From NCBI RefSeq assembly GCF_000764305.2, contig NW_025941275.1:250708-314707 (forward strand): DNA of 64,000 bases. Direction: 5' to 3'. Below, piece by piece: positions 5,401-51,959 of the stretch. Made by a program: the position numbers and the translations under genes. The first letter of the stretch is position 1. Every line of letters begins with the position of its first letter. Source of the stretch: Hyalella azteca (Eukaryota; Arthropoda; Malacostraca; Amphipoda; Hyalellidae). The notes beneath the pieces were generated by a model, which was given only the letters and a program-made list of their open reading frames with translations, ran no database searches and was not told the origin of the DNA.

Positions 5401-8400
5401 GTTTACGTCTTGGACAAATTTACGGTCGGACTAGCGGCCGGTCTCACGTCCAATTTCTTAATTCAATGATCAAGGAATATCTCTCAAACTAATGAACTTA
5501 ACTCGATGAATCTTGGTACACGTATTCATTACGACCTAACGGAAATGTTTAGCTCATGAAAAACTTTTTAAATTATGCCTTCATTTGTTTTTGCCATAGC
5601 TATATCGCAATACGGGCAAAATTCACAGTGATCAAGGAATTTCTTCCAAATTACTTAACATATTCGAAGGAAATTTTGAATTTACAACCCTAACTACCGA
5701 ATGGTAATGTTTAGCTCGTGAAAATTCTTTCGATTGTGCATTGTTCCCGAGTTTTTTTCTTCATTTCACCTTCATTCATGATATAAACAGCAATACGTGC
5801 TTAAATTCGCAGTAATCAAGAAATTTTTTCCCAACCCTAACTACAAAATAGATATGAACGAAACTTAGTATTTAAATACCTAACCTCAGCAACGGTGATG
5901 TTTAGCTCGTTTCAATTTTTTTCAATTATGCCTTCGTTTGCGAGCTATCCGGCTATGCGTAAACGGCTCATGGTTAAAACGGCCGGTAGAAAAGCCGGTC
6001 GGTTGTCCTATATCTGTATAACCCGCGAACGAAAGCAAAATAGAAAAATTGTGACGAGCTAAACATCACCGTTGGGAGGTTAGGTATTTATATACAAAGT
6101 TTCGTTGAAATCTGTTCGGTAGTTTAGAAGAAATTTTTTGATCACCGCGAATTTAAGCGACAAATTACCCGGCGATACGGGCCGAATATAAGGAAGTGTA
6201 AAATCAAGAATGACTGTGAAATGAAAAAAAAAAATCGCAAACGAAGGTTAGTAAAAAAATTAAATCTAAAAAATCACCCTTTGGTAGTTAGGAATGTATA
6301 TTCAAAATTTCGTTTAAATCTGTTCAGTAGTTCAAAAAAAATTCTTCGATCACTGTGAATATCGGCCTGCATCGCAATATAACTCACGAATGAAGGTGAA
6401 ATTTAAAAAATTTTCGCGTGCTCAACATCACCGTTGGGTTCTGATGAGTACGTACATGTTCCAAGTTTCATTGCGCTGCGTACATTAGTTTGGGAGATAT
6501 TGCATAATTGAATTTGGAGATTGGTCGTGAGACCGGCCGTAAATTTGCCCAAGAAGTCCTAGGTTTCTAGTGCCGAAACAGTTAAAACAGCTGAAAAACA
6601 TATTGGTTCACTAAATGGGTTCTATTTGTTAAATACATATTTGTGTTTAACCTTCATCTTTTAAAATTGCAGCGTACTAAAGTACTAAATTTCAAGAAAG
6701 AGACGTATGTTTTTATACGTGTCTGTGGGGGGCGCTAGAAATTCAGAAGGAAGCCAAAGTGGGCGCCAGCTTGAAAAATTTGGGAACCACTGTTATAGAG
6801 TCTCCATTATAGGTACGTCCTGTTGCTGTTTCCATCTTGGTGTTCTTTTTAGAATACCTATTAAATTCATGCAATTGCACTTACTGTTTTAAATGATTGT
6901 ACAAGACTGAGCAATATGGTACAAATACCCAATTTTTCACTGTAGGACCGTGCCACGCAGGTGGGCCGCTGCATTAGGCTGTAGTGACAACCTAAAGACA
7001 AATGATTATTCCCCACAAAGCAAATCATTCAACATACCTAACTGAGCAAATGCGTTATAAATGTACAATTTTTTTACTGTAAAACAATGCCTGGCAGGTG
7101 GGGTGCTGCATGAAGCTGTAGTGACAGACTACAGACAGGCGACGGTAGACAAGATACAAGCCTGGCGCATCGCGTCCTTTGCCACCAACCAGCGCTCAGC
7201 TGGTGAAGCGCAGCCACCAGTCTCGGGTAAACTGCCTCCCCATAGTGCTTCAAAATCTAGTTTTGTTTGTCAATAGTACCTAGTAATTCTTGGCAAGGGC
7301 ACTGGCCATGTTCACAAAATATTCTCTTTTAAAATGTCAATATATTTGTTTTTATTTAGAAAGAGAAATGGCCATGAATTTATCTTAGTCGAAACGAGTA
7401 AAGATTATAGGTATCGGGCATTTTATTATTTGATTGTATGGTATCTACCTATATGAAACCCAGCTATTTGTGTGTGAATGTTCTTCGTTAAACCAGCGTT
7501 CCTGTTGCTAGGTCATCAACAATCAAATTAGCCTCATTATGGAATATTATCCTGGAGTTTATATGACCTTGCTAATAATTCATCATTAAAAGCCATGTTA
7601 TGTGTGCAGCAAGCGACACTGAAGGTGGAGGCAACGTGGAAGTTACCCATAAGCTGCTCGCCCATCGCACTATACCATCTCTGCTGCTGCAGGATGTTGT
7701 GGTCGGTAGAATATTTCACAATGCACATACCTTCAGTAAAATTATTAAGCTCTTGAAACGAGTACAATCTGTGTATGACATTGGTGAAGTACAAATGATT
7801 AGCGAAGAACATTTGATTATTCAAGTATAAATGATATGTGAATTACAAATGAATTAAATGAGCATTGTTATGGATCATTTTTGTATGGTATCCAGCTCTT
7901 TGTGCTATAGCTTTCTCGTTGTTACTTGACTATTAGTGCGTCCTTGACTAGAATTTCATCTGATCTAGACTTAGGTTGCCCTCTTCACTGCCTTTACATT
8001 TTTTTTAATATCTCAGGTTATGAATCCAAATCCCGTGAGCGTCTTTGTCAGAATAACGCGGGCCGGAGAAAAGCATTGGAGCCACGTCTCCACCGACACA
8101 TTCTCGTGAGTCTTTCATCAATGCTCCATGATTGCTATTTAAAGGCTTAGCCATTATTGCGCACACATGTATCTTGCTATTTTGATTGCTTGCTCATTAT
8201 TCCGTTATTTCAAGCACTATTAGCTATTGCAGCTTATTCATTTCTATTATTTTGGGCATAACTTGCAACTCGACATCAAAACATTCTTAGGTTATTGTAT
8301 GTTATTTATTAACTAACCCCCGTGACGACATTCAGGGTAGAGTCACCGCTCGGCATCAGTCAGCCCGGCCACGCGACGCGGCAGGAGTACAGCGTCGTTA

Positions 8401-11400
8401 CGGGCACCGTCCCCGCGCCCGCGAGGCTCGCTCACCGCCACCAGCAGGCGTCCAATAAAGTCATCGTGGTCGCCGTCGCCACCCTCACACTGCCGCCTGT
8501 GCTTCAGGTGAGACTTGTGCCAGACTCCTATCCTCTGGGTGACTGGGTGAGACTTGTGCCACCCCATTTCTCCGGGTGAGACCTGTGCCACTCCTTTTCT
8601 CCAGATGAGACATGTGCTAGACTCCTTTCCTCCGTATGTGAACTTTGCCAGACTCCTTTCCTCCATATGAGAACTTTACCAGACTCCTTTCCTCCGTATG
8701 AGATTTATGCAACACTCCTACCAAGGGACACTTGTGCACCTATTGACGTCACAAATAAGTTTATTGCGCTCTGCAATGTTGTACTTGTGACAGACGCATC
8801 CTGTTGGTGCGGGATCTTCATGCGATCGATAGATATTTGGTGTTCAACGTGCGCGTTTAGTTGCACTTAAATCAACCTGATATGGATGACGTTTAGCATC
8901 AGCTCTGACCTAATGCACTTGCTGCACAACTACGAGGTGAATCGCATTTATTTTGATTTTGTGCTCTATAATTTTTGTATTAGCAATATTGTATTTGGTT
9001 GCCAGGTGGAGCCACGCATGTCAACGACTCTGCACGTGCTCACAGCCATCAACTATTCTGAGCCGATATTTCTGCAGGATTTACACGTCGCAACTAATGC
9101 TGCGCGACAAGCAGTCATTCAGGTCCGGTAACTGGTATTAATTATCATGTGTGTTCCAATAATCTGCTAATTACGTGGATTTAAAGGATATTTAAATGCA
9201 GTGGTTTAATAGGTAATTCATTTGTATCTAATCTGTAGCCGAATTACCCACTGTGCGAAATATTAATGTATGAGGGATGATTTTGTCAAAACGCGAAGTG
9301 GTTTCTATCTTCGATTGCTTGTATTTTCAAGCTCCTCTTCTAGTATTCATAGCGAAAACTTGTTTCTTCAATAGACGTGGTTAAAAATGACGAAAGGAAA
9401 AAGGTTCTCATGTTTCCTTCATGGTTTCCTTCAAAATTTCATGCTAACATCGTTCAGGTATTCAACTCTTAGTATTTCAGCTACCTCTACGCTATTCAAC
9501 TTCAGATTCAGGTGAACCTGGAGCTGAATGAATGAATTCCATGAATTTAATATGCTAGAATTGAATGTTATTTATTTACTGAGCTTTCTAAAAAATGTTG
9601 TAATTTTCAGACCCTGCAATCAGCCGTGTCTGAAAGTTCCATTTCAAGTCTGGTGCGGAGCCACAGCGAGAGCTGGTCTGCTGTGTGGCGTTCCGGCGTT
9701 CATATCGAGACTTCCAGAGCTCAAGACTCTCTAAATGGCGACCTCATCAACGCTACCATATATAACGTGCTGAGTCAGGTGGGTACACGATTATTAAATG
9801 GCGACCTCATCAACGCTACCATTTATAACGTGCTGAGTCAGGTGGGTACACGATTATTAAATGGTGACCTCACCAACGCTACCTACCATTTATAATGTGC
9901 TGAGTCAGGTGGGTATACTAGTAATTTGGTGTTAAGTTGCTAGATGGGGCTGCTGCTTAACGAAAGGATTGGTAAATGTAACGATACAGCTGTAGCAATG
10001 CTGCCTCACCCCTGCAGTCAGTACCAGCGCAATAATGAAATGGTTAAGCTGTAGCAATGCTGCCTCACCCCTGCAGTCAGTACCAGCGCAATAATGAAAT
10101 GGTTAAGCTGTAGCAATGCTGCCTCACCCTTGTGGTCAGTACCAGCGCAATAATGAAATGTTTAAGTTGTAGCAATGCTGCCTCAGCCTTGTGGTCAGTA
10201 CCAGCGCAATAATGAAATGGTAAAGCTGTAGCAATGCTGTTTTACCCCTGCGGTCAGTACTAGCGCAATAGCAACGCTGAAACAATGCTACCTCACCCGC
10301 AGGTTCGAGCGCCGTTGCAGGAAACGTCGCTGCCGCCTCAGCAGTGGGCAGATCTCGCTCAGCAGCTCAGCCCCCGACGCAGTGAAGGCTGCTACCAGGG
10401 GCACCACACGCTGTAAGTTTTCTCGAAGTTCCACAACTTTACGCGCATAAACGCTGTTAGTTTTTACTGATTTTTTCACCAAGTTCTGTGAGTTTAGTTT
10501 ATATTTGGCATTCGTGGAATGCCTTTAAACTCGGTACCGGTATTCATTTGACCGCATTATTTCTCTTTATGTATCCGGTTGCTATTTCTAAACATGTTTT
10601 GTGTCATGACACCCCTTTTATTTGATTTTATTTTCTATACCTACCAACTTAATTTCATGTTATTTATTTAATACATTATTTTCTGAATATGATGTTTCAT
10701 ATGAACTGCTGTGGCTTTAATTGCTATAGTTATGATGACAGCTTACGTTTATGATGCCATTGCAGTCAGGCGGAGAAGCTGTGGTCTCCCCTGACCACCA
10801 TTGATGACGTGCAACAGACTGTGCAGGCATGGCTCATCACGCTCGAGAAGCAGGTACGTCTAACGTCACATTGAGTCACATCTGTGACGTGATCGATATC
10901 TAACGTCTCATTGATTGATATCTAGCGTCTCAAATTCGATATCTAACGTCTCATTGAGTCACATTTGTGACGTGTATCGCGTGTTTGGTCGCTGTCTCTT
11001 GTCTCAATGACCAACATTCATTTCATGACGGTTATCAAGTGTAGATATCTAATGTAATTCGATGACAACACTTGTGATATTGACATAGGTACTAATTACC
11101 ATAATCTATACTCAGCCGCGTATTGTTCTGAAGTTTAGGCTTGTCTTGCACGAGGTTAATTTGTGTGCCCTGGTCACCATTGAGAACTTGGCAGGGATGT
11201 CACGGTCTCCTGCAAGCTGGGGCTGATGGCGTGCTACAGGCGATGCTGCTCAGCATGGGCGGACTATCCTTCCGTAACCTGCATCTCCAGATGAACACTC
11301 AAGCTAGTGACCTGCATCGTGATCTAACTTTCAGGTGCGTAGTTGTTCTTTTCGTAACCTGCATCTCCAGATGAACACTCAAGCTAGTGACCTGCATCGT

Positions 11401-13657
11401 GATCTAACTTTCAGGTGCGTAGTTGTTACCGTAGTTATTTTCGTAACCTGCATCTCCAGATGAACACTCAAGCTAGTGACCTGCATCGTGATATTACTTT
11501 CAGGTGCGTAGTTGTTACCTACCGTAGTTATTTTCGTAACCTGCATCTCCAGATGAACATTCAAGCTAGTGACCTGCATCGTGATCTAACTTTCAGGTGC
11601 GTGGTTGTTACTTAAGTACTATGCCGTGCTGTGCCAGATTCGTCATGCTAACGTCCCCTTATTATCTTAAAGAATCCATCGATAACTCATCGTTAAAGTT
11701 GAGCCGATAAATCACCCCAAATTCATCAGCGATTATCTTTCATGCCTAAGTTTCCATCTTTTTATGATGATAATATCTGTTGGATGAACTTGCAGGTGGA
11801 AAGATTATGTATTAGTGAAGGAAAGCAATATAATGAATATTAAATCGCATCATTTTGCCGCAGGCGCCTTTACTACGGCGTTGACGTTCATCTGAACTTG
11901 AGTGTGGAGGTGCAAGACCACGACTACAAGCCACTGCTGTGGCTGACGCTCGAGCAGCAACAGATGCCTGCCGATGCCAGCAATGACAGCAAAAACAGCG
12001 CTGTGGCTGGCATTATAAAACCTGGGAATTCGTTAGATTTTTTTAAATCTGATAAATCGATTGATGAAATATCGAAGGGGCTTTTCAGCAAAGAAGGAAG
12101 TCAGCACATCAACGTGAACTACATCTACATGCAGAGCTACGGGTACAGTGGCGTTGAGCTCTTGTCGAATGTTCCTGATGCCGACAGGCGAGCCCAAGGC
12201 CACCAGGCGGCGAGTGAGAGCTTCTATGCCTGCGATGGCGGCTGCCTCGACCCGCCTGTACAGCTGGGGTCAGTTTCTCATGCTCATTATTAATAGTTGT
12301 CAGTTTTCAGATAAATCAATTTTAGCCAACTGTGTTTTTTTATGGATTTATTTATTTTAGCATGCCGTGTTTTCCATTCTAATTTTACTGTCGAATTAGT
12401 ACTCAATCTCGATGACTAACATGGGATTCGTTATTTGTATTATTTACTTTTATTTTATTCATTTTGTTTATGATATTATTTAATTTGTTTTGATGTCAAT
12501 ACAAAATTATTGTTGCTTCTTCGTAGGTATGATATGTCTAGCTACAATAACAACTGTCTGTGAAATTATATGATATAGCAAATAGTTTACTCACTAATGG
12601 TCGGTTTCCGGCAAGTTAAGGGATTCAAGCGTGAGGCATACCTAATCGATAAATATGAAACTTGAGCAAATGACCACTTGTAACTTAAACTCACAATTAA
12701 CGTAAATGTATCCTGAACGACAGGAGGCAAGCACAGCCGTTCCCAGTGAAGCTGACTGAGCCCGTGACTGCGGTGCTGTACATCACGGCAGACAAGCAGC
12801 ACATGGAGGAACTCAAGCATTCCATCCACGTCAAGGAGGTGGCCATAGGTCGGTCTTAGCGACTGTGGCAGCTGGGGTCTGGTTAATTCATTTGGTTGAA
12901 TTATATTCAATATTAGTAGGGCTTCCATGCAGGAGTTTCAAACTCATTTCTGGATGAAAATAAATCAAAAATTAGGTAGGTATCTATGATAGCAAGTATC
13001 AAACTAAAATATTGGCTCAAAATAAACCAAAAATTGGCTAGGCATCCATACCAGCGAGTTTCAAACTTATTTATTGGCTAGAAGTAATTCCAAAATTAGC
13101 TTTACAGAGTGCACCTATGTCCTATCATTCAGCTACTAAGTATGCTTCATATTTGCAGTGAAAGAATGAACAAATTTCTATTTCACATTTCTGTTATAAG
13201 TATTAGTCTGTTAGTCTTTTTAAACTCTGTTTAAATCGTAAGTTCAAATAGTAATTAGTCTGTTTAAATCGCAAGTTCACCAAGAATTATCCAATTATCG
13301 CTTTCATTGAAGATAAGGAGAATTAATTAGGTGACTTCTTTACTTTTAATTTTGAATAAGACGATTTCTTTTTAAGTTGTTGACATATGTGTTTGCATTG
13401 CAGCGCCCGGTCATCACCAGTCGGTGATCGCGCTGCACCGGCACGGCCACAAGTGGGGGCGGTTACCCCCTCTCTTCTGGCTCTCGATCGCAGCCCTCAT
13501 CGTAACGTTCCATCTGTTCCTTGTGAAGCTCGTCGTCAACGAGTACTGCTCAGGCGACGTGCGAGCGCGCTACAGGTATGCCAGCCGCTCACTCTACACG
13601 CTGCACCCTGACGACTCGCCATATTTCAAAAAGTCAGTGAAAAAAGGCGCTCGCTGA
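2419..13657 (+). CDS. KIAA2013 homologue (uncharacterised conserved membrane protein), 17 coding exons
   Basis: Exons: 2419-2474, 2705-2811, 3279-3407, 4180-4255, 4816-4943, 7098-7226, 7610-7701, 8017-8105, 8336-8507, 9006-9122, 9611-9778, 10303-10412, 10766-10853, 11195-11334, 11864-12268, 12724-12848, 13404-13657. All have GT-AG borders and matching phases, giving 795 codons including the stop. An in-frame TAA at 2413-2415 fixes the start. The protein has an N-terminal membrane segment (about residues 22-40), a long middle domain and a C-terminal membrane segment in the last exon ([20 protein letters not shown], then VVNEYC). It resembles human KIAA2013 along its length, e.g. [29 protein letters not shown] and LPPLFWL. 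I recall the family as DUF2152; its function is not established. It is longer than the roughly 630-aa human protein, mainly from an extra stretch of about 70 residues in exon 15. The exon 7 donor (GTCGGT) is weak, chosen because it keeps phase and similarity. The first exon is the least certain. Confidence 0.9.
5021..6792. mobile_element. Non-autonomous fold-back hAT element in intron 5
   Basis: Ends are CAGTGGTTCCCAAA and its reverse complement (14 bp perfect). The flanking 8-bp duplications match at 7 of 8 positions (TTTTAGAG at 5013-5020, TTATAGAG at 6793-6800). Both features are typical of hAT transposons. The interior is two long inverted arms (about 5420-5990 and 6000-6565), each built of diverged subunits of about 150 bp that repeat the motif GAGCTAAACATCACCGTTGG. 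There is no transposase. A pyrimidine-rich (TCCG/TCTG)n tract lies near 5280-5320. Confidence 0.88.
6932..7000 (+). repeat. Decayed duplicate of the exon 6 acceptor region
   Basis: The sequence aligns with 7065-7136, which spans the intron 5 acceptor and the first bases of exon 6. Both have a T-rich tract and CACTGTA/TACTGTA, then a CAG, then GTGGGNNGCTGCAT and GCTGTAGTGACA. The copy carries changes that disrupt the reading frame, so it is read as a broken extra copy rather than an exon. Confidence 0.7.
8501..8716 (+). repeat. Exon 9 donor-derived tandem array (about 31-bp unit, 7 copies)
   Basis: The exon 9 donor GTGAGACTTGTGCC is followed by six more units with the core GTGAGACNTGTGCCAGACTC and a CTCC(T/G)-rich spacer. 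The next two units keep GTGAGAC intact; later ones drift to ATGAGA. All lie in intron 9 immediately after the true exon end. Confidence 0.85.
9733..9915 (+). repeat. Exon 11 3' end plus donor repeated three times (63-bp unit)
   Basis: The last 46 bases of exon 11 and the first bases of intron 11 occur three times. Each copy ends GCTGAGTCAG|GTGGGTA. Donors are at 9779, 9842 and 9909. The first two copies are 63 bp apart, a multiple of three, and the second stays open. The third contains an insertion and breaks the frame. Confidence 0.92.
9985..10302 (+). repeat. 59-bp minisatellite built on the exon 12 acceptor
   Basis: Five units of 59 bp contain GCAATGCTGCCTCACCCCTG followed by CAG. They run up to the real acceptor of exon 12, which reads CAATGCTACCTCACCCGCAG. 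Two units keep an intact CTGCAG acceptor-like end; later ones have TGTGG or TGCGG instead. Confidence 0.88.
10856..10990 (+). repeat. Imperfect repeats at the start of intron 13
   Basis: Diverged repeats of TCTAACGTCTCATTGA and CACATCTGTGACGTG follow the exon 13 donor (GTACGTCTAACGTC). They look seeded by donor-proximal sequence but do not clearly copy the exon. Confidence 0.6.
11271..11605 (+). repeat. Exon 14 3' end plus donor repeated four times (80-93 bp unit)
   Basis: The last 62 or so bases of exon 14 with its donor recur in intron 14. Unit starts lie at about 11273, 11353, 11442 and 11535, and donors TTTCAG|GTGCGT at 11335, 11415, 11504 and 11597. Copies are nearly identical, so the expansion is recent. 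Offsets are not multiples of three and reading through the first donor meets a stop, so only the first donor preserves the protein. Confidence 0.94.
12915..13095 (+). repeat. Diverged tandem repeat of about 65-70 bp in intron 16
   Basis: Three imperfect units share TTTCAAACT, AATAAATCAAAAATTA/AATAAACCAAAAATTG and GGTATC/GGCATC motifs. It is wholly intronic and has no copied splice site that I can see. Confidence 0.6.
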
Positions 13658-18697: not shown

Positions 18698-18995
18698 GAT
18701 TGGTGGCCGCGGGTGTCGGGTTCAGATAGTGGTGGCCGCGGGTGTCGGGTTCAGATAGTGGTGGCCGCGGATGTCGGGTTCAGATAGTGGTGGCCGCGGA
18801 TGTCGGGTTCAGAAAGTGGTGGCCGCGGATGTCGGGTTCAGAAAGTGGTGGCCGCGGATGTCGGGTTCAGAAAGTGGTGGCCGAGGATGTCGGGTTCAGT
18901 TAGTGGTGGCCTCGGGTGATGGCTTCAGATAGTGGTGGCCGGTGGTGATTGTTTCAGATAGTGGTGGTCGCGGATGTCGGGTTAAGATAATGGCG
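18698..18995. repeat. 29-bp minisatellite derived from the terminal LHFPL coding exon
   Basis: About ten units of GTGGTGGCCGCGGATGTCGG plus GTTCAGATA. The unit matches the C-terminal coding end of the LHFPL gene, where 19040-19070 reads GTGACGGCCGTAGGTGTCGT then GTTCAGAT. The array therefore appears to have grown from that exon into the 3' UTR. Confidence 0.85.
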
Positions 18996-19029
18996 GCTAA
19001 GATTTCGGGTTCAGATAATGGCGTAACGC

Positions 19030-22000
19030 TCATAGGTGGTAGTGACGGCCGTAGGTGTCGTGTTCAGATGGCGCTGGTGGCATCATCATCACAGGCTGAA
19101 GGTTCAAAGATTTCCTTGAAGCTGCCAGGCTGGCGCCGTCCGACATGAACGCACCGTTGCCAAGCTCACCTGCAAGACAAAATTTGTTCGGCACCGACAT
19201 GCTACGACCAGGTGGGAACTAATGAACGGTACATCAGTACCACTGAGCCGGCTATCACTAGCACCGAGAGCCAACTATCATTAGCCCAGAGCGCCAATTA
19301 TCACTAGCACCGACAGCCGACTATCACTAGCACTATTTGCGACAGAAAAGACACAATGTGACTGCACGCGACACAGGATAAGACCAGCATCAATGTCTTA
19401 TTCCTCCTCTTCGATTGATTGAAATGTTGACGACTCATGGACCTGCTTAGTTGGGTCCAGCGAACAGGCATAACTTTTGCATAAGTATCGAGCATGGTAG
19501 ATGAACCACTTTTATGTATCTCGGGCATGGTGTAGATGACGCACCTTTGTATATCTCAGGCACGACAAGTTGACCCACCTTTGTATATCTCGGGCGCGAC
19601 AAGTTGACCCACCTTTGTATATCTCAGGCACATTAAGTTGACCCACCTTTGTACATCTCAGGCGCGACTAGTCGACCCACCTTTGTATATCTCAGGCGCG
19701 ACTAGTCGACCCACCTTTGTATATTTCAGGCGTAGCATAGATGCTCTCCACGACGGGCTTGACGGTTCTGGTAGCGAGGACGAGGGCCAGCGCTGCTAGA
19801 ACCACAGCGTCGAACACGCCTGTCAGATGTATCAAGGTTTTATCATACCGAAGTTCATTAATAAAGTGTTATGAGTTCATTAATAAAGTGTTATGATCGT
19901 AATAATACAGATCTGGTGTGTTAGCAACGCACATCTGCTACTCGTACGAACGTCTCGTACTCTCGCGAGGCTCGTAACGGACGCCGATACGAAAATTTTA
20001 GCATCAATGCCCCATCAATTATTCATCGAGGCCATTGCGGTAACTGAAATCTAACCAGCTGCTAAAATTTAAACTGCAATGAACAATAATAAAGGAAGGC
20101 TAATAGTTGGGTAACATTTTCCGGCTCTAGCCAACGTAAGAAACTATGATTGTCATCAAGATAATTCATACTTGAAAATCGACAGTACCTGACATTAACA
20201 ACTTCAATATTTTTTAATTTTTCAAGAAAAAACTCGAGATCGATCATTTTGCATCCAAATTAAATGGAATAATCGACATATGATCAATATTTTCCACAAA
20301 ACTCCCGAGAAAAATGTTGAGATCGATAATTATCGACTTAAGTAACAATTGTATGACACAATTATACATTACGTGATAGGAAATATTATGTATATTTAAT
20401 TGGTAGAATAAAAATAAATAAGAATATCGTACCGATGATGGCGAGCACGTATGCCCAGCGGATGCTGCACTCGCCGACGTTGTACTGACGCGCCGTAGGC
20501 CCGCACAGATGACGTACCTCGCTGGTGTTGAACCCTAGCGGGTACACGCAGACTGCGGCGCCCAGCAGGCAACCTGCAATACCAGGCAGGTTAGGGCTGC
20601 CTCATGTGCACGCAGACTGCGGCGCCCAGCAGGCAACCTGCAACACCAGGCAGGTTAGGGCTGCCTCATGTACACGCAGACTGCGGCGCCCAGCAGGCAA
20701 CCTGCAACACCAGGCAGGTTAGGGCTGCCACATGTACACGCAGACTGCGGCGCCCAGCAGGCAACCTGCAACACCAGGCAGGTTAGGGCCCGGCTGCCTC
20801 ATGTACATGCAGACTGCGGCGCCCAGCAGGCAAGCAAACAATAAAAACGTTAGTTAGAGGCCACTGTTGCCAAGAGAGTGTGACTGGAAATTGAAAGCTT
20901 TATTGTATGAAAGATCAATAATAACAAAGTTAGTAATAGGAGGAGGCTGTCATGAATGTGGCTACGAATCGAAAGCTGGTACTAACAAAAGACTACTGTG
21001 AACAGAATGCTGCTACAAAGACGGCCCCTGCAGCACTCCAGTAAATGGAATGTTACCTCGAAGTGAACGCTGCTATTTGTAGAGAAACACTTTTGTATCG
21101 AAAGCTGATACCAAGAAAAGACTGCTGAGCAGAGAGAGGGGCTACTGCGGATAGAAGGCTAGATATACAAAGAGACGTGTGCTGTGAATTGAAAACGGCA
21201 TCAATTGATCGCTTTTTCGATGAAACAGCCATGTTTTAAAGTTTGAAATTGAGATAAGCTTTCTCTTTGATAGCAACAGCTCGGAATAACAGCTATGAGG
21301 AATGGCTTACTCCTGCAGGATCAATTAAAGCTTGACCAGGGAATGTAGGACGGCGAAGACTCGCTCAACAAAACCGTTTCGGAACACACGGTGACCTCAA
21401 ACTTGGCCAGTCTCCCGCGGCTAACTTCAACTGCGTGACCTAAACCCCCTTTTTCATCGTAAACCTCCGCCCTATCCTCCTAATTAAACCCACTCAAGCT
21501 TTAAACGAAGTAAACGAGTGGTTCGATGCGATTCTCTTGCAAAAATATGAAGACTTTTTTACGAAAAACAGCAGTAAATTTTGTTGTAAATATTGTACTA
21601 TCTAGTCACGCCGCTTACACTGTTTCAGCAATCAGTATTAAACGTTCTTACTCACGACAAACAGCACAAAATATCCTTGAAATCGTGGTGACCAACAATC
21701 CGAATACGACAAAGAGCACCAAATATTCGTACACAGTTTTACGAACAGATGAAAGCTAAGGGTCTTTTATTGAAAACAAGTTCCACTGTTCCATCAGCTA
21801 TAAAGTTATTCAATACATACCCGCCATGTTTTTTGATTATCTGAAGTCGCCACGAAATCTAACGAAGTTTAGATTTTGCTCTCGGATTGTGGAAATTAAA
21901 TGGAGGTTTACGGGCCCAAAAAAAGTCGTGGAGTAAATTTGCATGGCGTATTAGTTTGTAGTCATAGTAAATGAAAGTACCGGCAGAGGATATCTCCTCG

Positions 22001-26753: not shown

Positions 26754-28074
26754 TGAACAAGTGATTTAAAAAATTAAAAAATTCTTGAGGAACTTCAGAG
26801 GAAGCACGCAGAAGCTCTGATTTCTTTATAAATTATGGAACAAAGTTGCAGCTTGGGAGACCAAATATTTCGAGGGGGTTTATGTGGATTACAATATATG
26901 GTGTCAACTGGCTAGTAATGATCGGTATAATCAAGCGAGAACATGAAGATTTTAGAAGCAAGAGCAAAAAAGAAATAAGAGTAACTATATGTGAGGTGAC
27001 TAGATATGGCGCGAAGAAATCAGCGAGATCGCGATATCAGTGTACCGGTATCGGGAAAAGAAAAAAGTTTCTTTTTCAGCATAAATATCCGTAAATATTT
27101 TCAAGCTCAAAACATTCTCTTGAAAAAGATTTATTATTTTAGTATTTTGAAGAATTTATATAGATGAATAATTTTTTCACAATAACAAATTGTCAATGCA
27201 TACGTAGTTATTGTGTTATATTAATTACCGGTAACTCGCAATACCATTTCACTCTTCCACCGATTAGTTGGCATTATATTTTCAAATCAACTGTAAACAA
27301 AACGAAACGTTCATGAGCCATGAGACATTTAATCGTGAGCCGTGAGCCGCCTGGGCAACGCACTTGCAGGCAAACTGTCATAATAAAAGTGCAGGATAAA
27401 ATCAAAACAACTGCACAAGAAATAAAAAAAAACAGACTTCCCACTTAAATTAAACTTCCATTATGTGTGAATTTCAAGAAAATGCTTACTGATTCATTGA
27501 TACGAAAAAAAAACAATTCCAATGTCTTGGGTAGGAAAATTGTGTTGTTGGATTTATAAATCTGGCTCATGAGCAGAAAAAAATCTACACATGATACAGC
27601 GTTTACGTGAGCAATAAAATATTATGGGAAGAAACAGCTTCCTATAGTTTCGGCATAGCGTAAATACGGAGAGCTTGGCCTGTCAGAGAAAAATCTCGCC
27701 AGCCATGAAGTTCAGGCTTGAGTTGCCACTTTCTCCTAAGCGACTCCTTTTTTATCGCTTTATTCTTAACATTCACACGGCAAAAATAGCCGAACTAACC
27801 ATGAGCATTGAGCCAAAGCACGCAATTCTTTATTGAGAGATTCCTTATTGTTTAGAATAAATCTGAAAGCTGTTGCTTGAGCATTTCGAGAAGTGGTTCA
27901 CCTCAAACAATAAGCAAATTTACCACGCATGAATCTCAGCAAAAGTGTCGCTGATCCGAGAATGACGATGCTATGTTTTATGTCTGCAGAATAGTAAACA
28001 TCATAATTTAGTTAAAAATTATTTTAATAAAAAACTCGGAAGCTTGGGACTCGAATTTAGAGAAGAATAAATCG
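26754..28074. other. Non-coding stretch upstream of LHFPL gene
   Basis: AT-rich with no recognisable exon, RNA gene or transposon end. Confidence 0.45.
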
Positions 28075-28675: not shown

Positions 28676-28754
28676 TATTGCGTCTAGCAGTTAACACTCA
28701 TCAAGGCAGAGGAGAACAACTCATGCGCACCTAATTGTGTTTAGGTATATCTAT

Positions 28755-29150: not shown

Positions 29151-29224
29151 TATGGTGGACATGTAGTGCATTGCTTGTAGCAAAGCAATGTTGCAGTTAA
29201 AACTACTACGGTACCTATACCTAT

Positions 29225-35856: not shown

Positions 35857-38800
35857 ATGGTCGCATTACTTCTACCGAGCTTTATTTCATTCATCATATT
35901 CGCTGGTAAGTCGAATTGTTGAGGCCTGTTGTCGTGAATCTGGTGAAATTTTCGCTACTCTTTTAACACAGTTTATTTTTTGAAAACATTATTTACTGCA
36001 TTATTTAAACTATTCCTTCGCTATCATTCTTCATTTATAACCCATAACTATTCCAAATCTAGTAAAATCTTTTTTATTATAATAAACCGTTTTTTTAAAT
36101 GAATGTAATTGAAATTTTTATTTGAGTCAAATTGCGGGAGGGAATTTAATCTTGTGATTGTAAAGGCGAAATTATCTAAAGAAATCCTTCATCGAAGCGC
36201 AGTTTTCACGATGTAATTTTTTCAGTCCATCAGTGTTGTCAAATCCAAGTAGATCGATGCAATATTCCATCACTTCGTTGACGCTTACACAACAGTTTAT
36301 TTAACAATAATTTTTTATTGCTTACACAACAGTTTATTTAACAATAATTTTGTATTGCTTGCACCACAGTTTATTTAACAATAATTTTTTATTCCACACA
36401 GGAGCGACAGCCAGCCAATGGAGCTATAACCCCAGTAAGTATGACAACCCTGGCAAATAAAGTACAATTAAAATTTAACTTCGCTAGTTTCAGTATTTCG
36501 GAATGAACTTTTTCATATGAAAATTGACAAAAACTCTACTGATTATTTTGTGTGAAAAAAGAGTGTGGTAAATGTTCAAATGAGTTCATTTTCTTATTAT
36601 AAATAAAATCAATGGTCTTTCTTAATTGATTTTGGATTTATGATCCAACCAATGAAAACCTTTACATTAAATACTTACTCTATATTTCATCACATCAGGT
36701 ATATACAAATTAAATCACGTTATACTTTCGCATAAAGAGTTCGACAGAATTTTCTTCGCTCTCTTGCAATCATTTGTAGATAATTTGGGAATAATTCTAT
36801 TAATATTATTACGCCTACTTTATTCGGAAATTTTCTTAATATTTTTCATTCAACATATTTTTATTTCGCACAGGAGAGGAAGCCAGTAAATGGAGCTATT
36901 CCAGTGAGTATGACAACGCTAGCAAATGAAGCACGTTTTAAATTTCGCAAAATCAAATGATAAAACAGTAAGAGCTCATCAACAAACAATACGCAGTTCT
37001 TTATTAGAATACAATTTAAATTTCCAGTAAAAATAGCCAAAAAATTTGGTTGCAATTGAAATTGAAAGTAAAAATATCAACAATAATGAGGGTCCAATTG
37101 AAATTTGCAACAAAAATAGCCTATATAATAAGTATAATTAATATTTAAAAATTTCAGCAAAAAATAACTGGCCTTTGGAGTTTCCCTTGCACTGCGCTGG
37201 ATATCGCCAGTCGCCGATCAACATCCCGAAGAAGGAAACCTCCTGGAAGTGGCTGGGCACATTCTTGCCACTGAAATTCAGTGGCTACGACACGGTGCCT
37301 ACGTCCATGACGGCTGTAAACAACTTTCACACTCGTAAGAAATCTCATTCATTCATTTCGTTGTGTTATGTACACTGTTAGAAAAAACGGTGAAAAAACG
37401 GTCCCACTGGCATTCTAGTGGCCGGTCGCCCCGTGAAAATAAACTGTTTTGCCGTTTTTATCATATGTTTTACGGGTTTCTAATGTTAAATTAGAATAAA
37501 AACGGCGACACGGTGTTTCTTTTCACGTGCCGACCGGCCACTGAAACGCCGGTAATACCGTTAACGGTCATTTTTCTAACAGTGTAAAAAAGCTATCAGC
37601 TCTTTTAGTGCACAAACATTTGTTGTCATTATTTCATACTATGAACATCAATTAATTGAAACATGACCTATAATAAGTTTGTTATTGTTGAGTACAACAA
37701 GAAATTAATTGATTTATTTCCTATAATAAGTTTCAGTCACTGCTGCGTACTTGAGGAAGCCTCGCATATTTAGCGGCGGGCTCTCATCCCCATACGAGCT
37801 TCTGAACTTCCACTTCCATTGGGGGTCTGACGAGACCAAGGGATCTGAACATACCATAAATACTGTGCAGTGAGTCTTTTCATTACCCTTTCTATTCCTG
37901 TTATATTTAATTTTATTGAACGGACGACATTGTTGCCATATTTATAATAATCACTTCTGCAGGATTGTGCCTCAATCTTAATTTTGTGATTGCCAGGTAC
38001 CCTCTGGAGCTCCATCTCGTGCACAAGTTAGTAGGCCAGACGGTGGACGATGCTCTCGAAACAAGTCAAGGCCTGGCGGTACTAGGAATCTTTTTCGAAC
38101 TTTCTAGGACGGACAATCCTGCCCTGAGCCGGTTACTAAATATCACTTCTCAACTCACTAAAGAAAACAGTAAGCACCCACAATTATTCGTAGAAGCCAG
38201 AGCTGGGGCTAATAGTTACTTGACTTAATCCAGTAAATGCAAACACTGTCATCTTTAGACGAGCCATCTTTTTTGCTTCTATGTTAAGAACTCGAGGTTT
38301 GAATTTTAAACTTCCATTTCCATTTATATTTTCACGCCGATGAGTTTGAATGGCATTTTTAGCTCTTAGATATCAGCAATCATCATAATGATGAATCGAA
38401 ATCTCTACTCCGTAAACCTTGTTATTCACTCGACGATCTTCATGTCTCAAATTCATTCCATCCCACACGTGCTTACCTCATTTAATGTTATACCTCTAAA
38501 TTATAACACTTAACTATAAAATATAAAAATTATAAAAATACTTGATTTGATGCCCTTAATTTTAGCTGATGGTGCGAGGCATAGTTATTTAATAAGCCTA
38601 AGTGTTATTTTAACCATGAAATTAATGAGTAACTTACTCCTCACAACAGATTACACGGCGAATGTGCCGAACCCTTACGCACTGTCGTCGCTGCTCCCCG
38701 ACGACCTGAGCAGTTATTACCGCTACGAAGGCAGCCTTACGACGCCCGTGTGCAACGAGGTCGTCGTGTGGACCGTGTTCAAGCAGCCTCTGCCGGTCTC

Positions 38801-39925
38801 CAAGGCCCAGGTATCTATAGACCTATTATCAGTATTGTTTATATTGTTTGTGATGCTATTTCACTATTCGTACAAATATCATTGACAAATTCTAATAACG
38901 CTATTAGGTTGATTACAACCTATTAGGTTGATTAGGTTGTTGTGATTATCAGCGAATGATTATTCACAACTTCGATCGAATAATGGCAATATACTATTAT
39001 GTGTAGAATATAACGCTCTCGCAATTACAAAATCTTACCCAAATTAAGTTGAAGATTGAGTGCATTAGATTAATAAGGAGATGATATATTCCAGCTGGAT
39101 GCACTTCGGGATTTGACAGACGATAAAGGCCAACCAATACAAGACAACTACCGCAACCCTCTGCCCCTGAATGGCCGAAAAGTAAGACTTGTTAGGGTCA
39201 AGCCTCATACATTATCATAAATATCTAAAACATGACTGTAATTAATTTCACCATAACTAAGAGGCATTTATTACATTTATAAACTTATTTCTCCAAGAAA
39301 AACTATAACCTGTGAAATTTTACACATAATTCAACCAATATGCAGAGACTAGTCTAGCCTTATTTGAGATCGAAGCTATGTTATCTGGGGACATTCGTGA
39401 TGAATGTGACGTGCTAAAACCGAAATCAGCCGCATTATCTTTCAGTGATATGTATAATTAAATATCACAGCCCCCTCCATCATAAGATAAATATTTGTTT
39501 ATAGGCGCTAAATAAAATAAATATGAAATAATTGCACGAAATAACATTGTAGTATAATATTGCTGTGCAAGAAAAATAACCTACGGCCACCAGCTTCATA
39601 CGGCTACTTTACGGGTAACCTACATCTGAGGGTAGGGGAGGGGTTAGGACTCATGGGTCGCTATGATATGCGTAGGAGGCTTGAGTAATCTGCAAACATA
39701 TACAAACTTGTGCCACATTTTGATTTCTGATTTATAATTTAAAAATAAATATTTATGTTGATGTGAAAAGATTATATAAAATACTTCAATCTTGAAGTGT
39801 CCAATGATTTTAGTTTCTAATTAATTTTTTTATTTAATATTTCTTTCGTCTGAATTTAGTATTATCGATACATGTTCTTACTCGTAAATTTTTGCTTTTC
39901 GCAGGTGTACCGATCATGGCTGTAG
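35857..39925 (+). CDS. Secreted alpha-carbonic anhydrase, tandem copy 1
   Basis: Exons: 35857-35905, 36402-36434, 36874-36903, 37158-37334, 37737-37869, 37997-38169, 38650-38810, 39095-39181, 39905-39925. Including both mini-exons gives 287 aa. The start encodes a signal peptide (MVALLLPSFISFIIFAG). The catalytic fold is clear: CAGYRQSPINIP, NNFH (proton-shuttle His position), NFHFHWGSDETKGSEHT (two zinc-ligand His and the gatekeeper Glu), LELHLVH (third His), SSYYRYEGSLTTPVC (substrate Thr), and the C-terminal PLNGRKVYRSWL. All expected active-site residues are present, so it should reversibly hydrate CO2. The signal peptide suggests secretion; no GPI or membrane tail is seen. Exons 36402-36434 and 36874-36903 are homologous phase 1-1 mini-exons that each supply the WSY motif, so they may be alternatives. 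Intron 3 contains a MITE missing from copy 2. Confidence 0.93.
36281..36402 (+). repeat. 37-bp repeats containing the exon 2 acceptor (carbonic anhydrase copy 1)
   Basis: Units of CTTACACAACAGTTTATTTA plus ACAATAATTTTTTATTG lead into the real acceptor ATTCCACACAG|GAGCG. Each unit ends in an acceptor-like CA(A/C)CAG. The same set exists in copy 2, so it predates the gene duplication. Confidence 0.8.
37373..37584. mobile_element. 212-bp MITE in intron 3 of carbonic anhydrase copy 1
   Basis: Ends are CACTGTTAGAAAAA(A)ACGGT and the inverse ACGGTCATTTTTCTAACAGTG, flanked by TA on both sides (37371-37372, 37585-37586). It is made of inverted GC-richer blocks such as GTGGCCGG and CCGGCCAC. Copy 2 has the unoccupied target (GTTATGTAAAAAC at 48774-48786), which proves insertion into TA. 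Confidence 0.9.
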
Positions 39926-40300: not shown

Positions 40301-40322
40301 TTAATATTATTATTATTATTTT
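40235..40322. repeat. (ATT)n microsatellite
   Basis: About 29 slightly interrupted trinucleotide repeats in the 3' flank of carbonic anhydrase copy 1. It is absent from the matching flank of copy 2. Confidence 0.95.
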
Positions 40323-43185: not shown

Positions 43186-43189
43186 TTGT

Positions 43190-46018: not shown

Positions 46019-46053
46019 AGCGATCGTCAGTCCAACAACAACAGCCAACCGAG

Positions 46054-49000
46054 ATGGTCGCATTACTTCTACCAAGCTTTATTTCATTCATCATATTCGC
46101 TGGTAAGTCGAATTGTTGAGGCCTGTTGTCCAGTCTGATTGTCTAGTTGGATGCAAGTGAAGAACGTTTTTCGTTCCGTAATTGAAAGGTATTGATTATA
46201 TCTATAGTAGAAGGCTTGTTCCGTAATCAGATTTCATTGAAATAATTACATTTTTTACATAATACTTTTATATTTATGAGAAAAAGCCTGTTGTGTCGGC
46301 ACGTGTTTATCCGTGTGTGAAAGAGCATGCATGTGTCACGTGTCGCTCAGGACACATGACACATGTTCATCTCATGACACATGAAGCTCTGGGGACATTT
46401 TTGATACTAGTTTAATAGAGATTATTTTGTGTGAATACATTACTTACAGCATTATTTAACTTATTTTTCACCATCAGATAGTACTTAACATAAAATTATC
46501 AGGTCTGATTAAATATTTTCTGTATTAATATGCCACTATTTCAGAGAATGAATGCAATTGGAATTTCTACTCGAGTCAAATTGCGGGAAGGAATTTAATA
46601 TTGTGATTGTAAAGGCGAAATTATCTAAAGAAATCTTTCATCGAAGCGCAGTTTTTACGATGTAATTTTTTCAGTCCATCAGTCATGTTGAATCCACGTA
46701 GATCGATGCAATATTCCATCACTTCGTTGACGCTTGCACAACAGTTTATTTAACAATAATTTTTTATTGCTTACACAACCGTTTATTTAACAATAATTTT
46801 TTATTGCTTGCACAACAGTTTATTTAACAATATTTTTTTATTCCACACAGGAGCGACAGCCAGCCAATGGAGCTACCTCAGTGAGTATGACAATTCTGGT
46901 ACATAAAGTACAATTTAAATTAAACTACGCTAGTTGCAGTACTTCGGAATGAACTTTTTTCATGTCAAAATTAAAAAAACTCAGTCTATTATTTTGAGTG
47001 AAATAATGTGCGTCTCAAAATTACTTGTTAAAGACAACACCTCTAAAGAGGCCAGTGTCTCCGATATCACTGAATAATCAATTTCTTAGTTATTTTTTGA
47101 ATATTAAAAAAATATTTAAATTTTTTTTAATGTATAGCATTTTCTTCTAATTTCTTATTATTTATTCTGTCAATCGATTCAAGCATTTTCTCCGAATTTA
47201 CGCAGTGCGCGAAATTTCAGATCGATTGAACAGGTAGAAAAGGGTTAAATATCGATTATAAGATTTTCAGCAAACAGACAATCAAACAAACAATAAGAAA
47301 TGAAGTTAAAGAGAAGTGTTATAAAAAGTGTGCGGGAAATTTCGCTGGAGAAAACTTTACGAATTGCGTGAAGTTCATCCGAACCATAGCTGTAGCATAA
47401 GGATTCACCCGCCTTTGAAATGCCGCCCTGGTAACTATATAAATAGTTACGAGTTCTAGACGCTGTCAGCCAATCACTGACTTCTTTTCATGCAAAACCC
47501 GCCAATCACTGACGAGAAATAGGCCGCTACGTGTACATGGGCCGCTACGTGTACATGGGCCGCTACGTGTACATGGGCCGCTACGTGTACGTGGGCCGCT
47601 ACGTGTACATGGGCCGCTACGTGTATTTAAGTGACTTACGATAGTACGGCATCGGATGAACGAACCTCACCGTGATTGCTGTGTCGATGTCCAGTCTTAT
47701 CTTTTGATGTTTGATCGAAATAAGTTCGATGCTATGAACTTTCTGGTCTACTTGTTAAATGAAACGTGATGTTTTTACTTTAACTTAAAAGGAGTAATCG
47801 ATTATTCAGTATTGAGAAAAAATACCTGTATGACTGGAATTTCTTAAAATGAGTTCATTTTCAATTTATAAATAAAATCTATGGGCTTTTTACGTTGATT
47901 TTGGATTTATGATCCAACCAGTCACGATATTAATTTTAAACACATCAGACACACACAAATGAAATCACGTTATACTTTCGTTTGCAGTATCTGACAGAAT
48001 TTTCTCTTCTCTCTTGCAGTCATTTGCAGATAATTAGTGAATAGTTCTATTAATATATTTTTGCCTATATATACTTTTATTCGGAATTTTTTTAATATTT
48101 TTAATTCCACGTATTTTTATTTCTCACAGGAGCGGTAGCCAGTAAATGGAGCTATTCCAGTGAGTATGACAACGCCAATAAATGAAGCACATTTTGAATT
48201 TTATCATTGCTCCCTGCAGTACTTCGAAATGAACTTGTTTCATATCAAAATGAACAAAGATTCTATTGTCTTTTGAAGGGAAAAAAGAATGCGATATATT
48301 TTGCTAAATCAAATGGTACAACAGTAAGGCCTCATCAACAAACAATACGCAGTTCTTTATTAGAATACAATTGCATCCAGTAAAAATAGCCACAAAAAAT
48401 TTGGCTACAATTATTGAATTTCTAAGCATAAATATCAACAATAATGAAGATACAATATATTATTATTATTAATTGATTGATTATTATATTAATTTGCAAC
48501 AAATATGGTCAATATAATACGAATAATTTATTTTTATAATTTTCAGCAAAAGATAACTGGGATGAGGAATATCCGAAATACTGCGCTGGCTATCGCCAGT
48601 CGCCCATCAATATCCCGACGCGGGAAACCTCCTGGAAGTGGCTGGGCACTTTGCTGCCTCTGAAATTCAGTGGCTACGACGTGGAACCTACGTCCATGAC
48701 GGCTGAAAACAACTTCCACACTCGTAAGAAAACTAATTAATTCAGTTTGTTATGTTATGTTAAAACTGGTATGTTATGTAAAAACTATGATTAAAACGTC
48801 AACTGTTTTAATGTACAAACATTTGGTCGCCTGCGATGAACAATTCATGCCCAAATTCTTTAAGATCAACTTGATAATGTTGGTCACTAATTTTTTATTT
48901 CTGTTCATGAAATAATTGTGCTACTTTTGTAACAATTATTCATCCTTTGTAACTTCTGCATAACTCTTTCGTCTCGATGGTTCTTCTATCACGAATAAAT

Positions 49001-51959
49001 GTTAATTACAGCTTACTTATTTCATTTTTCCAGGAAGTATTTTTCAAGTCATATTATTTTTAATTTTAATATACATTTCAGTTATGATTCAATTTGTAAA
49101 ATTTATTATTACTATTTATTTCTTTTTATTATTATTATTAACATTCACAAAATATGAAAAGAAGTATCAATGCAGTGTTTATGTGCCCAAGACTTCCTTA
49201 AAATTGCTTCGAAATTGATCCCAATAAACACTGATCGGTAGTTAGATGAAATGGGCCAGACAGTTAACGGAATGGTCTTATGGTCTAGTGACTCTAGTAT
49301 CTAAATTACGTACTGTAATGAGAAAAATTTGTCCTCAATAGTGCTAATGAGTACTACAAGTTGCAATAGCCATAAATTACTAGATTTTTCAGTATTAATT
49401 TTAAATAATTTCACTGCTGACCTGATCTAATTGATACATGTACTGTTATAACTTTCAGGCACTGAATTTCAGGCATCAAATTAATTTATTCCTGCATTAT
49501 ATAAGTTTCAGACACTGCAAATGAAGCAAAAATAATTGATTTATTTCCTATAATAATTAAGTTTCAGTTACTCCTGCGTACTTGAGGAAGCCTCGCATAT
49601 TTAGCGGCGGGCTCTCATCCCCATACGAGCTTCTGAACTTCCACTTCCACTGGGGGTCTGACGAGACCAAGGGATCTGAACATACCATAAATACTGTGCA
49701 GTGAGTCTTTTCATTACCTATTCTATTCCTGTTATATTTAATTTTATAGCATCCTTACCGTTTCTCCATTCTGCAATATTTGTAGCTATTTAAATTTGAG
49801 CCCATTAAAGTGGTGATTTATTGAACGGACGACATTGTTGCCATATTTATTATAATCACTTGTGCAGATTTGCGCCTCAATCTTTTTTTTTTCTGAACAT
49901 ACCAAGGGATCTGAACATACCATAAATACTGTGCAGTGAGTCTTTTCATTACCTATTCTATTCCTGTTATATTTAATTTTATAGCATCCTTACCGTTTCT
50001 CCATTCTGCAATATTTGTAGCTATTTAAATTTGAGCCCATTAAAGTGGTGATTTATTGAACGGACGACATTGTTGCCATATTTATAATAATCACTTCTGC
50101 AGGATTATGCCTCAATCTTAATTTTGTGATTGCCAGGTACCCTCTGGAGCTCCACCTCGTGCACAAGTTAGTAGGCCAGACGGTGGACGATGCTCTCGAA
50201 ACAAGTCAAGGCCTGGCGGTACTAGGAATCTTTTTTGAACTTTCTAGTACCGACAATCCTGCCCTGACCCGGTTACTAAATATCACCTCTAAACTCACCA
50301 CAGAAAACAGTAAGCGCCCACAATTATCCTAAACTTGTTTCTGTAGAAGCCAGAGCTGGGGCCTTGATTTACTTGATCCAGTAAATGCAAACAGTGTCAT
50401 CTTTAGACGAGTCCAATATTTTGCCTCTACATTAAAGCTCGAGGTTTAAATTTTAGACTTCCATTGATCAATTGAAATCTCTCTGTCCTCCGTGAACCTT
50501 GCTATTCGTTCGACTTTCTTCATGTCTCAAATTCATTCCATCCCACACGTGTTTGCATCATTTTACGTTATACCTCTAAATTATAACACTAAACTATGAA
50601 ATGTAAAACTTATAGAAAATACATAATTTTAATACCCTTTATGCATATGATGGTGCGAGGCATAGTTATTTAATAAGCCAGTGTTATTTTAACCAGGAAA
50701 TTAATAAGTAACTTACTCGTTACAAAAGATTACACGGCGAATGTGCCGAAGCCTAACGCCCTGTCGTCGCTGCTCCCCGACGACCTGAGCAGTTATTACC
50801 GCTACGAAGGCAGCCTCACGACGCCCGTGTGTCGTGAGGTCGTCGTGTGGACGGTCTTCAAGCAGCCTTTGCCGGTCTCCAAGTCTCAGGTATTTATAGA
50901 CTCATTAGCAATAATCACTATTGTTTAACATTGTTTGTGATGATATTTCATTATTCGTACAAATATAATTGAAACATTCTAATAACGCTATTAGGTTGAT
51001 GTTTTGTTGTGATAATCAGCGAATAATTATTTCTGTTCGATAGACTAATGGCAATAAACGATAATGTATAAAATGGAACGCTCTGCAAATAATGATATCT
51101 TACCCTAATTGAGTTAAAGATTCACTGCATTAGATTAATGAGAATATATTTCAGCTGGAAAAACTTCGGTCTTTGAAAGACATTAATGGGGAACCAGTAC
51201 AGGACAACTACCGCAACCCTCTGCCCCTGAACGGCCGAAGAGTAAGACTTGTTAGAGTAAAACCTCATACTTCTCACATATATCTAAAACATGACTGTAG
51301 TTTATTTCAGCATAACTGCAAGGCATTTATTCTAAACTAATTAGGTCGATAAAAATTACAACAAGGCGAATTTTATATAATAATTAATTTTAGAAAATTT
51401 TAATAAACCGAGACTAGTCCACCCAAATTTCAAATCGAAACTATGTCAGCTGAGGACATGTGTGATGAATTTAAACTCCCCGTAGACGTGAAATAATATA
51501 AATTAACATTATTGGATTCAAATGATATAATTGAACATCATTACCACATCCATCAGAAACTAAATATTTATTTATGGGCGTTTAAAATGAAATAATGCTG
51601 CTAAATATCATTGCAAGGTTATAAAGTCAGTGCAACCAAATTACCTACAACTACTTACGGGTCGCTATATAATATTCGCAGGAGACTTGAGTAATTATCA
51701 TTCAATCATGACTTAAATATCACTCAATCTTGGTCATATTTTGTTTACAAATTAATAAAAGAAAAGTCAATATTTATATTGAAGTGCAAAGATTGAATAA
51801 GCAAAGATTGAATAAATTAATTCCACCTTTAGGTGCCGCATGATTATATTCTTTTAATTTTTTTCAGTTATTATTTCTTTCGTTAGAATTTAATACTATT
51901 GATACGTGTTCTTTATCGTAATTTTTTGCTTTTCGCAGGTGTACCGATCATGGCTGTAG
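46054..51959 (+). CDS. Secreted alpha-carbonic anhydrase, tandem copy 2
   Basis: Exons: 46054-46102, 46851-46880, 48130-48159, 48547-48723, 49568-49700, 50137-50309, 50729-50889, 51155-51241, 51939-51959. Phases match throughout. The signal peptide is identical to that of copy 1. Active-site motifs are intact: YRQSPINIP, ENNFH, NFHFHWGSDETKGSEHT, LELHLVH and GSLTTPVC. The main differences from copy 1 are at the start of exon 48547 (DNWDEEYPKYCAGY instead of NNWPLEFPLHCAGY), CREVVVW for CNEVVVW, and LEKLRSLKDINGEPVQ for LDALRDLTDDKGQPIQ. Exon 4 (49568) and the following intron and exon are nearly identical to copy 1, unlike the other introns, which suggests gene conversion. Both mini-exons (46851 and 48130) are kept. 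Likely function is extracellular CO2/bicarbonate interconversion; tissue use may differ because the upstream regions differ. Confidence 0.93.
46270..46620 (+). repeat. Carbonic anhydrase intron 1 module, copy 2 gene
   Basis: Fourth member of the module family seen at 35290, 35935 and 43190. It holds a 12-bp stem, GTGTCACGTGTC (46333-46344) against GACACATGACAC (46351-46362), with one mismatch and a 6-base loop. The stem includes a CACGTG E-box. Confidence 0.65.
46733..46850 (+). repeat. 37-bp repeats containing the exon 2 acceptor (carbonic anhydrase copy 2)
   Basis: Same structure as 36281-36402: units ending CACAACAG or CACAACCG before the real acceptor ATTCCACACAG. Shared by both paralogues. 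Confidence 0.8.
47012..47838 (+). mobile_element. Private insert in copy 2 containing dispersed repeat copy 3
   Basis: Absent from the matching intron of copy 1. Within it, 47395-47660 carries TCAGCCAATCACTGACTTCT, CGCCAATCACTGACGAGAAA, GGCCGCTACGTG and ATAGTACGGC, as in the copies at 17160 and 30745. The insert boundaries are approximate. Confidence 0.65.
47522..47626 (+). repeat. 18-bp tandem repeat inside the dispersed element
   Basis: Six units of GGGCCGCTACGTGTACAT. The other two copies of the dispersed element have a single such unit, so this expansion is private to this copy. Confidence 0.92.
49657..50126 (+). repeat. 235-bp tandem duplication of exon 4 3' end, donor and intron 4
   Basis: Sequence from within exon 4 (AAGGGATCTGAACATACC) through CTGTGCA|GTGAGTC and about 190 bases of intron is repeated with a 235-bp offset. 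The second copy lacks the exon 4 acceptor but keeps an intact donor at 49936. Copy 1 gene has a single version with a small deletion in the intron. Confidence 0.92.

Follow-up and report, generated by a model that had tools for sequence, protein, structure and literature searches.

Eleven exon edges in four genes of a 64-kb stretch of Hyalella azteca DNA, analysed here over its whole length and called the window in what follows, are accompanied by tandem copies of the sequence that contains the splice junction. We think that they are quite probably minisatellites of the mirage type, in which DNA containing an exon edge was duplicated head to tail, while the exon-proximal copy would still be the one spliced and the protein would stay unchanged. 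The data also point, weakly, to exon edges being favoured targets of such duplication.

Gene Models

The gene models were built by hand and comprise 74 coding splice junctions in four genes, all of which have uninterrupted frames. The first gene (2419–13657, plus strand) has 17 coding exons and encodes 794 amino acids in an open frame; its Pfam match is DUF2152 (E = 4.3e-95), and the name KIAA2013 is taken over from an earlier note made on this DNA. The LHFPL gene (19030–26552, minus strand) has six coding exons and 283 amino acids (Pfam L_HMGIC_fpl, E = 5.5e-44). The exon numbering of these two genes is the same as in the earlier note. Two tandem carbonic anhydrase (CA) genes lie on the plus strand: copy 1 (35857–39925), which was the one scored in the Pfam scan (Carb_anhydrase, E = 4.7e-73) and has tandem exons 2a and 2b, and copy 2 (46054–51959), whose coding sequence is identical to that of copy 1 at 761 of 831 bases.

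Exon 2 is double (2a, 2b) in both CA genes, at 36402–36903 and 46851–48159. The sequence similarity of 2a and 2b was examined in copy 1, in which the tandem duplicate with its splice sites occupies 36392–36945 (plus strand) with a spacing of about 470 bp. The frame of the hand models is kept with exon 2a alone, with 2b alone or with both, and going by these models the two may be alternative or mutually exclusive exons. At the far end of the window (59685–63999, minus strand) there are two long open frames; a BTB domain was recognised in one of them (25.7 bits against a cut-off of 20.5), and the second gave no Pfam match at E ≤ 0.001.

Tandem Duplications at Exon Edges

The tandem duplications themselves are above chance. 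A self-diagonal scan with offsets of 10–600 bp and a score of at least 16 returned 205 segments, whereas six Markov shuffles, taken as control, gave 0.17 false segments for every 64 kb. A low-complexity filter removed 18 of them, and the remaining 187 were grouped into 42 arrays; beyond 53 kb of the window the scan found a single array only (56963–57020). Each junction was also submitted to a gapped probe test, in which the 80 bp around it were aligned with its flanks and a junction-spanning copy was accepted if it scored higher than each of 60 shuffled versions of that probe. By this test, 14 of the 74 junctions have a junction-spanning tandem copy, namely the 11 duplicated exon edges and three that stem from the tandem exons 2a/2b of CA copy 1. 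Both exon ends are affected, with seven donors and four acceptors among the 11 edges. The unit length is about 29–93 bp in the multi-copy arrays, and the single longer duplication measures 235 bp. In addition, the use of each alternative copy with a mappable boundary was modelled in silico, which gave 18 scored copies.

In KIAA2013 (plus strand), the duplicated edges are the acceptors of exons 6 and 12 and the donors of exons 9, 11 and 14. The exon 6 acceptor (7097/7098) and its upstream copy (6933–7137) are 137 bp apart and 79% identical, with AG|GT kept. The array at the exon 9 donor (8507/8508; 8496–8719) is formed by units of 29–39 bp that start about the GT; the site could be mapped in two copies, with GT in one and AT in the other. 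At the exon 11 donor (9778/9779; 9732–9918), a 63-bp unit that includes 46 bp of exon is repeated 2.9 times. The exon 12 acceptor (10302/10303; 9975–10312) has a 59-bp array of 4.8 copies upstream, and the model acceptor itself matches the unit only by gapped alignment. The array at the exon 14 donor (11334/11335; 11267–11614) consists of four copies, 80–93 bp apart, each with CAG|GTGCGT.

In LHFPL (minus strand), the donors of exons 2, 3 and 5 and the acceptor of exon 4 are duplicated. The exon 5 donor array (19497–19732) has a 34-bp unit, and the exon 4 acceptor array (20542–20833) has a 64-bp unit repeated 4.5 times; all three extra copies scored include some 32 bp of exon and retain AG|GT. 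The exon 3 donor array (22915–23034) was found both by the self-diagonal scan and by the gapped probe test. The donor of exon 2, an exon whose final base is 23981 (23835–24007), has a copy 135 bp downstream with 82% identity, in which 23835–23872 repeats 23970–24007 and GT has become CT.

The two duplicated edges of the CA genes (plus strand) both belong to exon 4. The acceptor in copy 1 (37736/37737; 37650–37750) has an upstream copy at 37650–37695 that is degenerate and without AG, whereas the donor in copy 2 (49700/49701; 49657–50125) takes part in the 235-bp duplication, which includes exon end and intron. The weakest edges are the acceptors of KIAA2013 exon 12, with a score of 33 against a shuffle maximum of 24, and of CA copy 1 exon 4, with 40 against 28; neither was found to be spanning except by the gapped test centred on the junction.

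The earlier note had named 12 sites at which the repeated unit was said to contain the junction. Tandem Repeats Finder placed arrays at or adjoining every one of these places except KIAA2013 exon 6, and by the self-diagonal and gapped tests nine of the 12 have a junction-spanning copy and three do not. Two of the latter are the CA exon 2 acceptor arrays (36283–36401 in copy 1 and 46732–46850 in copy 2, plus strand), which are real arrays of three 37-bp units, matching one-to-one between the genes, that lie on the intron side and stop 8 bases short of it; the repeated part is intronic with an acceptor-like ...ACACAACAG, and the exon is outside the unit. The third is the coding end of LHFPL (18701–19077, minus strand), where a 29-bp array lies downstream of the stop. 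This repeat is also real, with the coding bases 19040–19077 matching the unit of the 18701–19023 array, yet it holds no splice junction, and the match leaves out the stop codon. Two junction duplications had been overlooked, at the LHFPL exon 2 donor and at the CA copy 1 exon 4 acceptor.

A Possible Preference for Exon Edges

The main alternative is that exon edges are not preferred at all, and that a minisatellite-rich genome scatters arrays which hit edges by chance. The earlier note had reasoned that junctions, being a small part of the locus, should rarely be hit. In the introns of the four genes, however, the share of duplicated DNA is 18.4%, nearly a fifth (compared with 8.0% of their coding sequence and 6.2% of the rest of the window), and chance alone would cover 10.4 of the 74 junctions. 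In a footprint test, in which a junction was counted as covered with at least 4 bp on each side, 11 of the 74 were covered, nine of them duplicated edges and two belonging to the CA exon 2 duplication (p = 0.48 by rotation), and the enrichment claimed earlier is not borne out by this measure. The number of junctions within 40 bp of a footprint is 23, with 18.9 expected (p = 0.12). KIAA2013 alone is below expectation, both for spanning (4/32 vs 5.1) and for the 40-bp distance (6/32 vs 8.9), and intron cover is 21.0% up to 60 bp from a junction vs 17.8% further in. All but the 40-bp figure for KIAA2013 were counted in favour of chance overlap. Against it, the two CA genes alone have 11 of 32 junctions within 40 bp (6.2 expected, p = 0.018). 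Moreover, the footprint null is too generous: a grown array inserts new DNA, inserted copies cannot cover an older junction, and therefore an array can hold an older junction only if its unit did.

Since extra copies are inserted DNA, we judged a test on units to be fairer than one on footprints. Each array was collapsed to one ancestral unit, which was placed randomly wherever it was not wholly coding. Counting all edges, 11 of 28 units contain a junction, with 3.5 expected (p = 0.00015). In the strict count, limited to the junction-blind scan and with the acceptors of KIAA2013 exon 12 and CA copy 1 exon 4 taken as misses, the result is 9 of 28 against the same expectation (p = 0.0035), so that the claimed enrichment does find nominal support by ancestral unit. 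GC content explains part of the excess, as GC-matched placement raises the expectation from 3.5 to 4.4 (9 observed, p = 0.01). Among arrays of at least 88% identity, 6 of 17 units contain a junction (1.9 expected, p = 0.0043; GC-matched p = 0.026), compared with 3 of 11 among those below 88% (1.65 expected, p = 0.22). The excess in the former argues that old duplications being easier to see beside a conserved exon is not the whole reason for the pattern.

Leaving out single genes gives p = 0.012 without KIAA2013, p = 0.001 without CA copy 1 and p = 0.006 without CA copy 2; without LHFPL, the value is p = 0.14, which speaks for chance overlap. Intron 5 of KIAA2013 contains diverged internal repeats at 5464–6438, and the three arrays there may be one transposon remnant; when they are left out, the strict count is 9 of 25 units (2.9 expected, p = 0.0005).

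The unit test took 28 of the 42 arrays. Nine lie outside the four genes, and the others omitted were the LHFPL 3' array (18701), the twin array at CA copy 2 exon 2 (46732), the CA exon 2 duplication (36432) and two pairs at a spacing of 586 bp (35353, 35400), in which one member is upstream of CA copy 1. These further omissions, the CA exon 2 duplication excepted, would have been non-spanning or a duplicate entry. A first version of the test (n = 29) took in this duplication, part of which is merged in the array at 36283 that was entered as intron-side and non-spanning. Unit limits were set by hand, identity is that of the best segment, and the array at 5464 was entered as 0.80 by judgement. 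The p-values are optimistic, because the window was picked post hoc for its striking look. In our opinion, a two- to threefold preference for exon edges is possible, and the probability that there is no preference falls somewhat short of even.

AG|GT Junctions and Possible Intron Gain

Junctions of the AG|GT type are duplicated in 7 of 24 cases vs 4 of 50 for other junctions (one-sided Fisher p = 0.023), in a comparison that was chosen after seeing the data and that counts the CA exon 2a/2b junctions as non-duplicated. For KIAA2013 and LHFPL alone, the figures are 7 of 18 vs 2 of 24 (p = 0.022). The scored copies of KIAA2013 exons 11 and 14, like those of LHFPL exons 4 and 5, have AG|GT, which is mostly gone from the copies at KIAA2013 exons 9 and 12, though these are among the seven. 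In AG|GT arrays, a GT...AG stretch lies between the copies. Such edges might be favoured if the arrays neutralised themselves in RNA, the original junction being restored, whatever the number of copies, when everything between the first GT and the last AG is spliced out; we consider this rather unlikely. If true, AG|GT junctions would be safe sites for the birth and growth of tandem arrays.

The copies with intact AG|GT would also be expected if the duplicated edges were introns in the making, with tandem duplication as a first stage of intron gain, for which there are a model from amphioxus globins (in the available text of PMC3087553) and a case in potato (likewise in PMC4974935). However, the extra copies sit inside introns that already exist, and we regard intron gain as unlikely here.

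Position and Use of the Extra Copies

At all 11 edges, it is the intron side of the model junction that carries the extra copies. This is partly by construction, because the models were chosen for an open frame. When the alternative copies were used in silico, 17 of the 18 led to an early stop. The exception is the copy 2 donor of KIAA2013 exon 11, which adds 63 bases (21 amino acids) in frame and free of stops. It follows that the arrays do no harm only as long as splicing stays with the exon-proximal copy, and the survival of duplications through tolerance of redundant splice sites, which the earlier note had proposed, agrees with both observations. Survival of the duplications because their units are in frame was considered as well, and is ruled out by the same 17 stops.

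It had also been claimed that the copies keep GT or AG. This holds for the scored copies of the high-identity arrays (KIAA2013 exons 11 and 14, LHFPL exons 3, 4 and 5, CA copy 2 exon 4), whereas the splice dinucleotide has been lost in three diverged copies, those of LHFPL exon 2, CA copy 1 exon 4 and one of KIAA2013 exon 9. Other diverged copies, i.e. the second of KIAA2013 exon 9 and that of KIAA2013 exon 6, retain the site. Judging from the sequence, there are alternative donors and acceptors of identical sequence that could be used, a point against the mirage-type reading. That the copies are working splice sites which yield protein variants is nevertheless very unlikely: the intact donor in copy 2 of KIAA2013 exon 11, with its 21 additional residues, is in favour, but the early stops from all the remaining scored copies and the changed dinucleotides in the three diverged ones are against.

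For the mirage-type reading we envisage the following course. Short stretches of DNA, of about 35–235 bp, that happened to hold an exon edge would have been duplicated head to tail, and some of these duplications would then have grown through repeat turnover. The splicing machinery would stay with the copy adjacent to the exon, the extra copies would turn into intron with the protein unchanged, and duplications within exons would be purged by selection. The lower cover of coding bases (8.0%) than of introns (18.4%) is in favour of this reading. We infer the use of the exon-proximal copy, the near-neutrality of the extras and the selection against exonic duplications, and error-prone end joining or template switching would be the mechanism of duplication.

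Age, Breakpoint and Assembly

Each unit of the 37-bp array at CA exon 2 has its counterpart in the other CA gene (155 of 162 bases of this part identical); the array therefore either predates the gene duplication or was exchanged between the copies afterwards. CA copy 2 alone has the 235-bp duplication at the exon 4 donor, which is absent from copy 1. The junction of this duplication consists of a T run and about 8–9 extra bases (TCTGAACAT), which together with the following ACC repeat 12 bases located a few bases downstream. In this one case, such a filler fits template switching or error-prone end joining.

A perfect copy of the 19-base transposase mosaic end and, after it, the reverse complement of this sequence stand at 69–106, adjoining a 20-bp tandem repeat. 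We take these 38 bases to be a perfect junction adapter from a mate-pair library that has remained in the assembly, and array copy numbers may consequently be off. Invention of the duplications is unlikely, because the copies diverge from one another. It is very unlikely that short-read assembly invented or misjoined the tandem copies: the adapter would favour this, but copies in several arrays are 79–82% identical and differ at many sites where invented ones would be identical, and the exon 2 acceptor array is common to both CA paralogues.

CpG Pattern

The CpG observed/expected ratio is 1.0 overall in the window. In KIAA2013 it is 0.36 over exons 1–5 (2419–4943) vs 0.89 over exons 6–17, and it falls to 0.24 over 2475–4815, which comprises introns 1–4 with the exons between them. 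This 5' depletion hints at methylation of the 5' gene body, as read from base composition. The pattern looks like that of many arthropods, in which gene-body methylation is weighted to the 5' part, and it hints at an arthropod host rather than at amphioxus. None of the junction duplications of KIAA2013 is located before exon 6. A stretch upstream of LHFPL exon 1 (28073–29541) contains a 25-bp array of about 24 copies and repeats of 66–112 bp, with a CpG ratio of 1.55.

Relation to Known Systems and Outlook

Minisatellite-like tandem duplications across exon-intron boundaries have been described under the name of mirages in the Adh3 and globin genes of amphioxus. According to the available text of that report (PMC3087553), they occur at 5' and 3' boundaries, with units of 10–160 bp, many copies with AG/GT and 81–100% identity in one gene; their length is unstable, RT-PCR suggests regular splicing, and a model of intron gain was proposed. 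The duplications in the window resemble these mirages in that the units span exon-intron boundaries (11 edges among 74 junctions), in that both exon ends are affected (seven donors and four acceptors) and in their minisatellite size of about 29–93 bp, the 235-bp duplication being longer. By this resemblance, the duplicated exon edges appear to be an instance of a pattern already described. The earlier note had suggested a lineage-specific mechanism or bias, but the same structures are on record for amphioxus. Unlike the mirages presented there, they comprise eleven edges in four genes within a single 64-kb window, and whereas splicing in amphioxus was followed by RT-PCR, here it is judged from the open frames of the exon-proximal copies in one assembled sequence.

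In human segmental duplications, as far as the text of PMC2812944 at hand goes, minisatellites at exon-intron boundaries with a unit of about 30 bp on average alter gene structure. Those repeats are in young primate paralogues and some form novel introns, whereas in the window the coding sequence is unchanged according to the models. In the RdRp gene of potato, a duplicated segment with AG|GT crosses an intron-exon boundary (PMC4974935, in the portion available). An AG|GT segment is duplicated in both systems, but the copies in the window lengthen an existing intron. Tandem duplication is treated as a source of introns in the accessible parts of a review (PMC3443670) and of the studies on potato (PMC4974935) and Drosophila (PMC2891723).

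We think that the window provides two elements usable for a genome-wide test, namely a density (11 edges among 74 junctions) and a null model in which each array is collapsed to its unit. If mirages are common outside cephalochordates, they would readily supply duplicated splice sites and offer a natural setting in which to study intron gain and how the spliceosome chooses among identical sites.
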